From Jatrophihabitans telluris (lineage in GTDB: Bacteria; Actinomycetota; Actinomycetes; Mycobacteriales; Jatrophihabitantaceae): a stretch of DNA of 64,000 nt. The stretch lies in NCBI RefSeq assembly GCF_023516435.1, contig NZ_CP097332.1, forward strand, positions 186,001-250,000, read 5' to 3'. Positions 43,386 through 46,937 of the stretch are shown here, in pieces; the first letter of the stretch is position 1, and each line of letters opens with the position of its first letter. The notes below the pieces were generated by a model. It made no database searches and was not told where the DNA came from. It saw only the letters and a list, made by a program, of their open reading frames with translations. Position numbers and translations under genes: made by a program.

Positions 43386-43556
43386 GGTCCAACCTTGCTG
43401 AGAGAACCTGTGTGCCAACTAGGCGCTGGTCGAGCCAAGGATAGGTACAACCTGGGAGTGCGCTGACTGGGGCGTCCGATCTGACTGGCTTGTTCGTAGG
43501 TGCCGGACACGGCAGTATCGCTTGCGTACACGGATGCTTACTGCGGGAGATCTGAA

Positions 43557-44810
43557 TTGAGCGCGCGGGTGGGCTTCAGCACCGTGCTGAAAGTGCGGGA
43601 ATTCCGCGCGCTCTGGCTCGCGTCGGCGCAGTCGATGGCCGGCGATCAGCTCGCCCGAGTCGCGATCTCGGTGCTCGTCTTCGAGCGCACGTCCAACTCC
43701 GCATTGACCGCGCTGACGTATGCGCTGACGTTCTTGCCGGCGCTCATCGGGGGGATCCTGTTCGCGGGTCTGGCCGATCGGCTCCCTCGACGGCGATTGA
43801 TGATCTGGTGCGATCTGCTGCGGGCGGTCCTGATCGCCCTGATGGCGGTACCGGCCGTGCCGCTGCCGGTGCTCGGACTGTTGCTGATCGCCGTCGTCGT
43901 GATCGGTTCTCCCTTCGGGGCGGCTGAGAACGCGCTGGCTCCAATGATCCTTGACGGCGAGGCCTACGAGGTGGGCACCGGGCTGCGAGCGATGACCGAT
44001 CAGGTGGCGCAGCTGCTCGGCTTCGCCCTGGGTGGCGTGCTGATCGCGCTGTTGAGCGCGCGGGGTGGCCTGCTGGTCGATGCGGCCACTTTCCTGTTGT
44101 CGGCGCTGCTGATCCGCCTGGGCGTTCGGGAGCGGCCCCGCGCTCTCGGAAGCCGACGGGCCAGTGCTGCCGACTATCTCGACGGACTGCGCGCCGGCGC
44201 CGCGGTGATCTCCCGGACGCGGCTGCTACGGGTCCTGCTCGGCCTGGGCTGGCTGGCTGGTCTGTTCATCGTCCCGGAAGGCGTCGCGGCTCCACTGGCC
44301 GCACAGCTGGGCGGCGGTGCACGCTCTACCGGGCTGATTCTGGCGGCAATGCCGGCGGGTACGGCCCTGGGGACGTTGGTTTACAGCCGCCTGCTGGATT
44401 CGAAGCGTCGGCGCGAATGGCTCGGCCCGATGTCGGTGCTGGCCGCGGTCCCGCTGATCTGCTGCCAGTTCAGCTCGTCGCTGCTGGTGACCGTGCTGCT
44501 GCTGGCCCTCACGGGCGCGTTCACGTCCTACGAGGTGCAGGTTTTCGCCGAGTACGCGCGTGCGGTGCCCGACCGGTGGCGGGGGCAGGCGATCGGCCTG
44601 GCGGCGTCGGGGGTTCTGGCCGTGCAGGGTCTTGGCGTCCTGCTCGGCGGCCTCGTGGCTCAGCAGTGGAGCCCGGAGTTCGCTGTATGCGCCGCGGGTC
44701 TGGCCCAACTCGTCCTCGCGCTGATGCTGGCGCGGGCGTGGCGGCGCTTGGGTGTAGCCGAAGGAACTTGCGACGAAGGAGTCTTCGTCGAGGCGTTGCC
44801 GGGAGAGTGA
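43557..44810 (+). CDS. MFS exporter
   Basis: A protein of about 417 residues with around 12 membrane helices. Motif A-like GLADRLPRRRLMIWCDLLRAVLIALMAVP and an opening LKVREFRALWLASAQSMAGDQLARVAISVLVFERTSN place it in the macrolide-efflux/enterobactin-exporter-like MFS group. The TTG at 43557 is preferred because GGGAG precedes it by 8 nt; GTG at 43569 is an alternative. The gene points toward the heptapeptide mini-gene array at 44886-45141, which makes it a candidate exporter of that product (inference). Confidence 0.87.
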   Translation: MSARVGFSTVLKVREFRALWLASAQSMAGDQLARVAISVLVFERTSNSALTALTYALTFLPALIGGILFAGLADRLPRRRLMIWCDLLRAVLIALMAVPAVPLPVLGLLLIAVVVIGSPFGAAENALAPMILDGEAYEVGTGLRAMTDQVAQLLGFALGGVLIALLSARGGLLVDAATFLLSALLIRLGVRERPRALGSRRASAADYLDGLRAGAAVISRTRLLRVLLGLGWLAGLFIVPEGVAAPLAAQLGGGARSTGLILAAMPAGTALGTLVYSRLLDSKRRREWLGPMSVLAAVPLICCQFSSSLLVTVLLLALTGAFTSYEVQVFAEYARAVPDRWRGQAIGLAASGVLAVQGLGVLLGGLVAQQWSPEFAVCAAGLAQLVLALMLARAWRRLGVAEGTCDEGVFVEALPGE

Positions 44811-44885: not shown

Positions 44886-44909
44886 CTAGCGCCAGGTCAC
44901 GTTGTTCAT
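44886..44909 (-). CDS. Mini-ORF 4 (downstream-most), peptide MNNVTWR
   Basis: ATG start at 44909, TAG stop. GAGAGGA (44916-44922) lies 6 nt upstream. No further minus-strand ORF follows before the convergent MFS gene, so this is the end of the array. Confidence 0.7.
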   Translation of the reverse strand: MNNVTWR

Positions 44910-44961
44910 CGGGTGTCCTCTCAGATGGTGTCGGTCGGGCGTCGGGGTGGTGCGGGGCTGA

Positions 44962-44985
44962 TTAGCGCCAGGTCACGTTGTTCAT
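44962..44985 (-). CDS. Mini-ORF 3, peptide MNNVTWR
   Basis: ATG start at 44985, TAA stop. GAGAGGA (44992-44998) lies 6 nt upstream. Same sense codons as copies 2 and 4 but a different stop codon. Confidence 0.7.
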   Translation of the reverse strand: MNNVTWR

Positions 44986-45037
44986 CGGGTGTCCTCTCGG
45001 ATCGTGTCGGTCGGGCGTCGGGGTGGTGCGGGGCTGA

Positions 45038-45061
45038 TCAGCGCCAGGTCACGTTGTTCAT
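45038..45061 (-). CDS. Mini-ORF 2, peptide MNNVTWR
   Basis: ATG start at 45061, TGA stop. AAAGGA lies 6 nt upstream. The spacer before it is unlike the spacers before copies 3 and 4, yet the 21 coding bases are identical to theirs. Confidence 0.7.
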   Translation of the reverse strand: MNNVTWR

Positions 45062-45117
45062 GGGATTTCCTTTCCAGACGGATGGCGGCGGGATGCGTGT
45101 CGGCGTGTCGACCTAGG

Positions 45118-45141
45118 TCAGCGCCAAGTGACGTTGCTCAC
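45118..45141 (-). CDS. Mini-ORF 1 (upstream-most), peptide MSNVTWR
   Basis: GTG start at 45141, TGA stop. AAAGGAG (45147-45153) lies 5 nt upstream, an excellent ribosome site. Against the other copies it differs at four bases: the start codon (ATG to GTG), Asn2 to Ser, and two silent changes (valine GTG to GTC, threonine ACC to ACT). It is the best evidence that the reading frame is under selection. No known family. Confidence 0.7.
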   Translation of the reverse strand: MSNVTWR

Positions 45142-45194
45142 TTTCGCTCCTTTCTGAGTGACCGCAGCCGATGCACGAACCGGCGAATTAGGTC

Positions 45195-45243
45195 TGTGTG
45201 AACCACAGGCACGGCGGTCTTGTGAACAATTCACACGGTTCAC
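45195..45243. promoter_or_regulatory. Nested palindromic operator candidate
   Basis: TGTGAACAATTCACA (45221-45235) is an inverted repeat of TGTGAA/TTCACA with a 3-nt centre, close to a Crp-type site but one base shorter. It is flanked by GTGAACC (45198-45204) and GGTTCAC (45237-45243), themselves an exact inverted pair. Four GTGAAC-type half-sites in 49 bp, 57 bp upstream of the first mini-ORF, suggest cooperative regulator binding. Confidence 0.5.
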
Positions 45244-45456
45244 GCCGTTACCCGCGGCCCGGTGTGTCGTTGAGCGTGTCGACGGCCGAAACTCCGGGCT
45301 CCTGATTGGATTGCCGGGGAAATGGGTCGCGAATGCCCATGCCCACGGGGCTGCATGGGTCTGCGCAGGTCGTCATAGCTAGCTACCCTCCGGCCGGTCG
45401 TGGTGGAACTTGTCCGGGCATGCAAAATTTGCCTGGTACGTACTACTTGTCCCGGC

Positions 45457-45478
45457 TTGTACGATTTGGAACGTACAA
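45457..45478. promoter_or_regulatory. TTGTACG/CGTACAA inverted repeat
   Basis: Seven-bp perfect arms (45457-45463 and 45472-45478) with an 8-nt centre, in the AT-richer part of the gap, 176 bp before the GGDEF gene. It shares GTACGATTT with the palindromic site in front of the EphD-like gene (47082-47090). Operator function is inferred. Confidence 0.45.
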
Positions 45479-45653
45479 ATCCCGGCCCCCGATGGGGCAC
45501 GGCACCCGCTCCGCCGTGACTCCTGTGGCGGGTGGTGAAGGCCCTGGGTAAATCTTGACTGAGGCGGTATCTAAGCCGCGTTAAATAGCTCAACTTCTCT
45601 GGCGGAAGCTGTAGTCAGTCCGCTACGGTTTGTGTATCCCGAGGAGCGTCCGC

Positions 45654-46937
45654 ATGACACGAACCACACCAACTGGTGCATTGCGCGGGTTTTCGCGCGC
45701 CCGCGCCTGGGCTGTGTGGTTCATCCCATCTGGAGTCAAGCGGGTAGTTTTAACCGTCGACATATTTGCCATTTTCCTGGCAATCGCCGCGTTCGCCTCA
45801 ATTAGCGCCACGTCTCATGAGATGTGGCTTTTTGTCGGCCTCCTGGTCGCGAGCACGGTGTTCGAGGAAATCTCAGCGCACGTCGAAAGCATGCGGTTCC
45901 GGCTCAACGTGGCCATGCACGCCGACCTCACCTCCGTCTGGACCTTCTCCGCGGCCGTCGTGCTTCCGCTTCATCTGGTCTTCGTCCTCTTCGTCGTCGT
46001 GCGACTGCACATGTGGTTCCGCCACCACAAGCCGTCCGGGGCCACGCCGCACCGGCTGTTCTTCACCGCGGCCACGATCTGGATCGCCGGCGTCGTCGCC
46101 CACGAAGCCGTTCGCTCCCTGATGCACGGCTCGTCGTCGATCATCGGCTCCGGCGCGTTGGCCGTCCTCGTGATCGCGGCCGCCATGCTCGTCTACGCCA
46201 GCACGAACATCGGCCTGGTGTACCTGGTCATGCTGGTCTCGGCCGGCCGAGAGAAGACCCCCGCCTTCTGGAGCCTGTGGCGGGAGAACGCGATGGAGCT
46301 GGCGACCCTGTGCCTCGGCGCCATGGTCGCCCTCTGCCTCGTCTTCCAGCCGTTCTTCATGGTCTTGGTCATCGCTCCCATGGTGTTGCTGCAGCGCAGC
46401 GTCCTCACCAAGGAACTGCAGGTGGCGGCCACGACCGACGCGAAGACCGGCCTGCTCAACGCGGTCACCTGGCAGGAACTGGCCGAGCGCGAACTCACCC
46501 GTTCACGCCGCGAGGGTTACAACGCGGCGATGCTGATCATCGACATGGACAACTTCAAGTCCATCAACGACAGCCACGGCCATCTCGTGGGAGATGCCGT
46601 ACTCAAGGCCGTCGCGGCCCTGCTCGGCGACGAGCTTCGGGAGTACGACACCATCGGCCGCTTCGGTGGCGAGGAGTTCGTGGCGCTCCTGCCCCAGGTG
46701 TCACCGCTGGACGCCCTCGCGATCTCCGACCGCGTGCTGCAGGCGGTTCGGGACCTTCGTATCCCCCTGCGCGGCGAGGAGATCCCGCTGTCGGGCTTGT
46801 CGGCGTCCATCGGACTCGCGGCCTTCCCCCAGCAGGGCGATGCGGTCGAGGACCTGCTGCACGTTGCCGACGCCGCGCTCTACCGAGCCAAGCGTGAGGG
46901 TCGCGACCGCGTCGAGTACAGCTACATCGGCGACTGA
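45654..46937 (+). CDS. Membrane-bound diguanylate cyclase
   Basis: A 427-residue protein; ATG preceded by GAGGAG. About six membrane helices (residues 30-255, a MASE-like sensor without recognised family) precede a GGDEF domain: TDAKTGLLNAVTWQELAERE, DMDNFKSINDSHGHLVGD, and the active-site loop FGGEEFVALLP. The signature is intact (GGEEF), so cyclic di-GMP synthesis is likely. No inhibitory RxxD is obvious. It is the nearest regulator gene to the mini-ORF array, transcribed away from it. Confidence 0.92.
   Translation: MTRTTPTGALRGFSRARAWAVWFIPSGVKRVVLTVDIFAIFLAIAAFASISATSHEMWLFVGLLVASTVFEEISAHVESMRFRLNVAMHADLTSVWTFSAAVVLPLHLVFVLFVVVRLHMWFRHHKPSGATPHRLFFTAATIWIAGVVAHEAVRSLMHGSSSIIGSGALAVLVIAAAMLVYASTNIGLVYLVMLVSAGREKTPAFWSLWRENAMELATLCLGAMVALCLVFQPFFMVLVIAPMVLLQRSVLTKELQVAATTDAKTGLLNAVTWQELAERELTRSRREGYNAAMLIIDMDNFKSINDSHGHLVGDAVLKAVAALLGDELREYDTIGRFGGEEFVALLPQVSPLDALAISDRVLQAVRDLRIPLRGEEIPLSGLSASIGLAAFPQQGDAVEDLLHVADAALYRAKREGRDRVEYSYIGD

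Follow-up and report, generated by a model that had tools for sequence, protein, structure and literature searches.

Organization of the mini-gene locus

The window, a stretch of 64,000 nucleotides (64 kb) from the 4.19 Mb, single-contig genome of Jatrophihabitans telluris, carries on its minus strand four tandem open reading frames (ORFs) of seven codons, encoding MSNVTWR once and MNNVTWR three times. Mini-ORF 1 (MSNVTWR, GTG start) lies at 45118-45141 behind the Shine-Dalgarno (SD) sequence AAAGGAG (45147-45153), and mini-ORFs 2, 3 and 4 (all MNNVTWR) occupy 45038-45061, 44962-44985 and 44886-44909, with the SD sequences AAAGGA (45068-45073), GAGAGGA (44992-44998) and GAGAGGA (44916-44922), respectively. 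Read on the minus strand, 45141-45118 gives GTGAGCAACGTCACTTGGCGCTGA, and 45061-45038, 44985-44962 and 44909-44886 give ATGAACAACGTGACCTGGCGC, in each case plus stop. The gap between SD and start is 5-6 nt in all four, and the start-to-start distances are 80, 76 and 76 nt. An earlier note had described this array, and its coordinates, peptides, spacing and SD sequences are confirmed here. Across the whole 76-nt unit, copies 3 and 4 share 97% identity, so that recent duplication alone would account for their identity. Because of this near-identity, coding and recent duplication are inseparable within the window, and the case for coding rests on relatives.

Divergent from the array lies the gene for a 427-residue membrane diguanylate cyclase (TM-DGC; 45654-46937, plus strand, ATG at 45654 with SD GAGGAG), the proposed receptor of the peptide. 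Its N-terminal multi-TM region (~250 aa), which has no Pfam match, is followed by a canonical GGDEF domain whose GGEEF active site and upstream RxxD I-site are both intact, placing the protein among diguanylate cyclases. The TM domain has short loops and, as judged from hydropathy, is mostly membrane-embedded. Among 18 members, two showed a weak match of this domain to the Pfam family MASE9 (best E 8.8e-4), and the window protein showed none; searching the PDB with a TM-domain profile returned no match, and a single-sequence AlphaFold model of the TM-DGC reached a mean pLDDT of 46. The host genome (4.2 Mb) contains ~32 GGDEF-domain matches. One further locus in it (L129) holds a second, weaker TM-DGC paralogue, with no mini-ORF visible in the stretch read.

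On the other side of the array, and convergent with it, a plus-strand gene (43500-44810, start codon uncertain) encodes an MFS transporter, the proposed exporter, which matches MFS_1 and MFS_3; a match to EntS, the exporter of enterobactin, falls short of the curated cut-off. MFS_3 proteins are exporters of many things.

The interval between array and TM-DGC (45154-45653) is assumed to contain two divergent promoters; a promoter and terminator scan found nothing, with no sigma-70-like site in the interval, and a k-mer search of intergenic regions recovered mainly SD words. An inverted repeat, TTGTACG-N8-CGTACAA, is present at 45457-45478, and a CGTACAA-related word occurs upstream of the TM-DGC at locus L028. 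Two operator-like inverted repeats on the minus strand, TGTGA-ATTGT-TCACA (45221-45235) and TGTG-GTT-CACA (45197-45207), sit ~60-90 nt upstream of mini-ORF 1 and possibly form a binding site for a regulator of the array.

Mini-gene arrays accompany a family of membrane diguanylate cyclases

Within the order, a profile of the TM domain had matches in 81 of 298 genomes. A broader profile, applied to the class, matched in 121 of 395 genomes (63 of 138 genera), and its weakest hits may be other membrane DGCs. A first phylum-wide search, run with a narrower profile and a stricter limit, had found nothing beyond the window's genome; matches came with the broader profile and looser limit. Here, we show that most TM-DGC homologues have an array of their own at the same place and on the same strand, encoding different peptides. 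The earlier note had linked the array to neither the TM-DGC nor the MFS gene, and both are tied to arrays here.

Across the class, arrays comprise 2-13 mini-ORFs for short, mostly Trp-containing peptides. The large ones encode MRDTTWS-type (13 copies), MRNRDN-type (11), MSSRDF (10) and MTVVNWS (7) peptides; others encode MNSWHI, MNVWDW and MNNWSW (five copies each), MNNNQWF, MNAHAWG, MLDNWRWP, MQGWSF, MSNWGWGK and MSNHGW. Single mini-ORFs also occur (MNGRED, MLRGVTWI), and a single MLRGVTWI or MLRGVTWT recurs in several genera. On the 197-kb linear plasmid p1 of Pseudonocardia sp. DSM 110487 (L150), a TM-DGC with four MRNHNW mini-ORFs lies downstream of a gene annotated as a prolyl oligopeptidase family member, and no MFS match was found there. 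The array is unannotated in the one annotated record examined. At some TM-DGC loci (e.g., L101, L103, L104 and L187-L189), no mini-ORF was detected.

The earlier note had named, as a refutation of its observation, lack of peptide conservation in related genomes whose surrounding DNA is conserved. Taken literally, this is what we find, with the exact peptide in none of 60 related genomes. What relatives do share is the arrangement; the peptide is missing only because every receptor paralogue comes with a peptide of its own. Among genome contigs, the exact peptide pattern gave two single, non-tandem matches (L008 and L009, in Paenibacillus terricola and Plantibacter sp.), which are probably due to chance.

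Arrays were scored with a detector requiring an SD sequence, 3-12 codons after the start and at least two peptides that are 60% alike. Divergent upstream arrays were present at 42 of the 92 TM-DGC loci with enough flank, compared with one on the other strand (1/92, MRCGG, an artefact), none in the 1.5 kb that follows the TM domain and none in dinucleotide shuffles of the upstream regions (0/1840). An independent class-wide set gave the same picture (23/50 divergent vs. 0/50 on the other strand) and included arrays of 13, 8, 8 and 7 copies. Even the 50 of the 92 loci without a detected array had SD-preceded mini-ORFs, of which 40 were divergent and 3 lay on the other strand, among them MNGRED (seven genomes) and MRGQNW (three); arrays or mini-ORFs that the detector missed include seven copies of MNSNSW in L023 and MAGRDQ/MAGKEQ in L087, L091 and L096. 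The array is thus beyond chance, and it pairs with the TM-DGC in a fixed strand and order. Over ~409 kb (the 64-kb window and 20 flanking contexts), arrays were found only upstream of homologous TM-DGC genes, and none was found in 170 kb of sequence flanking ~25 further GGDEF genes in the genome of the window, indicating that the link is specific to this TM-DGC family and not to GGDEF proteins generally.

Coding evidence and peptide packaging

Of the codon changes between consecutive array copies, 134 are synonymous and 54 nonsynonymous, against an expected synonymous fraction of ~0.19 for random single-base changes; the detector's 60% identity rule biases these counts somewhat while tolerating one or two replacements per pair. 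The most extreme arrays show synonymous:nonsynonymous ratios of 12:0 (L079), 11:0 (L102) and 8:0 (L160). In arrays of at least three copies, mean ORF identity is 0.93 compared with 0.64 for the gapped spacers, and ORFs are more alike than spacers in 41 of 45 such arrays. The four MRNHNW ORFs of L150, for example, have unalike spacers and differ by AAC/AAT changes. As judged from these codon comparisons, the peptides are shown to be under protein-level selection. Since 29 of the 54 nonsynonymous changes fall at residue 2, the variation suggests that the C-terminal part is the one recognised.

At some loci, one ORF with internal repeats replaces the mini-ORF array. The repeats read PTDWT (L081), PTDWA/T (L100), DDSNWVR in three copies (L117), STDWTF (L118), RPNDWR in two copies (L112) and NQGW (L019), whereas the mini-ORFs of L154 contain two peptide copies each, MRDTNWVLRDTNWSW. 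With both array and polyprotein packaging found, the short peptide emerges as the conserved unit, independent of how it is genetically packaged.

The MFS gene and putative peptide-receptor pairing

Of 24 loci compared, 22 have a member of a single MFS family beyond the array, and a profile search found a co-oriented upstream MFS gene at 65 of 94 loci, more commonly where a mini-ORF was present (57/74) than where it was not (8/20; Fisher p = 0.0026). MLRGVTW-type loci, in another family, are without it. Across 21 contexts of ~17 kb, the TM-DGC and MFS genes were the only ones to recur widely, and no maturase, protease or immunity gene was recurrent.

Among 62 dereplicated loci, peptide distance correlated with TM-domain distance (0.30) and with GGDEF distance (0.25). 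The partial correlation was 0.21 (p = 0.001) for the TM domain when GGDEF distance was controlled for and 0.12 (p = 0.008) for GGDEF when TM-domain distance was. These values favour the TM domain as the peptide's partner, in a correlation that is modest and from which shared ancestry is only partly removed. Support for the specificity of the TM domain, as for the role of the MFS protein, is indirect.

A putative peptide-signalling cassette and its alternatives

We consider the locus to be probably a self-contained peptide-signalling cassette, consisting of a peptide, an MFS exporter and a TM-DGC receptor with c-di-GMP output. The mini-ORFs would be translated directly into a mature or nearly mature peptide of 6-8 residues, with no leader, and the copy number of the array would raise peptide output. 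Export would follow, at most loci through the MFS protein whose gene flanks the array, and the multi-TM domain of the divergent TM-DGC, with its short loops, would bind the peptide directly. Binding may alter GGDEF activity and thereby the cellular c-di-GMP level, in a direction that is itself conjectural, and the peptide could have a population-density role. Peptide and TM domain would have diversified together, giving each paralogue a private signal. The peptides are polar for ligands of a membrane bundle and have no export signal. More broadly, we lean towards private peptide languages across the actinobacterial class, in which mature peptides of 4-8 residues, encoded by up to 13 leaderless mini-genes or by repeat polyproteins, would be exported by dedicated MFS proteins and sensed directly by multi-TM DGCs that convert them into c-di-GMP levels.

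The earlier note had offered three roles for the array, and signalling peptide is the one that fits best. The main rivals to a secreted signal are an intracellular ligand and a weapon resembling microcin C, neither with positive evidence beyond that for the signal. Were the peptides to act within the producing cell, they would be cytosolic or membrane-inserted regulators of the TM-DGC that report translation or Trp status and not the presence of other cells, and the MFS protein would only clear them. The lack of a leader or signal sequence, which extends to the polyprotein forms, would suit this reading, as would the MLRGVTW group with its missing MFS gene and the presence of Trp in 47 of 65 arrays; however, the other 18 have no Trp, so a Trp sensor would not be general, an exporter-type MFS gene recurs at the same place, and paralogue-specific sequences suit signal discrimination better than a metabolic gauge. 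We regard an intracellular ligand as unlikely. A mini-gene with an MFS gene is also the outline of microcin C, and the EntS-like MFS protein would agree with an exported antimicrobial or RiPP, modified or not, for which the MFS protein provides export and immunity and the TM-DGC regulation. This is less likely still, as peptide divergence tracks that of the TM domain in a signalling enzyme and an immunity gene does not recur. Nor does any modifying enzyme adjoin the array in the window or recur in the 21 contexts, and the genome's sole ThiF and P450 matches are >1 Mb away (~1.2 and ~1.1 Mb, respectively), which also tells against the minimal RiPP precursor that the earlier note had considered.

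Very short ORFs with strong SD sequences might equally be leader peptides, attenuators or ribosome drop-off sinks, another role raised in that note. Such regulatory upstream ORFs would be expected to precede a co-oriented gene, which is usually absent, the next gene beyond the array being convergent in 31 of 35 cases called. The C-terminal residues of the peptides are moreover preserved through synonymous changes, the sequence differs per paralogue and polyprotein variants exist, leaving this role very improbable. The similar length of the repeats (60-80 nt) would also agree with an RNA element (a sponge, a protein-binding site or a structural repeat) in which the ORFs are incidental. We give this the least credence, given that an Rfam search returned no match, the window units are not more stably folded than shuffled sequences (z 0.87 to 1.49), spacers diverge and codons change synonymously.

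Comparison with known systems

In microcin C, mccA is a seven-codon gene whose product is a directly translated peptide, and the system includes an MFS exporter gene. The present loci likewise combine a tiny, directly translated gene with an MFS gene, the match here being to MFS proteins in general and any likeness to MccC putative. They differ in their tandem copies and their link to a diguanylate cyclase; the C-terminal Asn is not conserved, and an MccB (ThiF) homologue is missing from the surroundings. Comparably small are the biarylitide precursor genes, which are described as encoding five residues in 18 bp and as missed by automatic annotation (PMC13417212). Unlike these and other P450-dependent RiPPs, the window locus has no P450, the nearest being ~1.1 Mb away.

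Among signalling systems, the leaderless communication peptides (LCP/SIP) of Firmicutes are hydrophobic peptides of ~8 residues, encoded by single genes and read by the cytosolic regulator RopB (PMC10518010). Both they and the present cassettes have an ultrashort, leaderless ORF directly encoding a peptide beside a putative receptor gene, with maturity of the peptide predicted in our case. The present cassettes differ in being actinobacterial, in their tandem copies and MFS partner, and in having a membrane GGDEF protein as putative receptor; no RopB/Rgg-type regulator is adjacent, the neighbours being the TM-DGC and MFS genes, and the peptides (e.g., MSDRDF, MRNRES and MNNVTWR) are not highly hydrophobic. 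In RRNPPA systems, tandemly duplicated pheromone copies reside in one secreted propeptide and the receptors are cytosolic (PMC11343458). Several pheromone copies per locus resemble our PTDWT-type polyproteins, while the RRNPPA/Phr scheme differs from what are here mostly separate mini-genes of 6-8 residues, with no signal sequence and with a TM-DGC in place of a cytosolic TPR receptor.

For most membrane diguanylate cyclases, the input signal is not known. One precedent for a DGC sensor domain reading an extracellular signal is the direct binding of AI-2 by a DGC with a periplasmic dCACHE domain (PMC7584622). AI-2 is a small molecule with no peptide gene, unlike the ligand proposed here.

As an assembly, the cassette appears to be new, in that no compared system unites tandem mini-genes with both an MFS partner and a TM-DGC; the function proposed for it falls within peptide signalling at large. 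We found no prior report of such a cassette in a literature search whose scope excluded most subscription journals and bioRxiv preprints. Mini-genes of 6-8 codons escape annotation, and a widespread signal family of this kind would therefore have gone unseen. Quorum sensing was reviewed in 2016 as under-explored in Actinobacteria, with reports from 25 of 342 genera and experimental evidence in nine (PMC4748050). If the proposed signalling is true, each cassette supplies ligand and receptor in sequence, making the peptide directly synthesisable and testable. The series from single genes through 13-copy arrays to polyproteins represents an unusual gene-copy amplification of a tiny product. Whole cassettes can also stand side by side, as on the contig of L134, where the order MFS-array-DGC-MFS-array-DGC runs in a row, with the peptides MLDNWRWP and MNNHGW.
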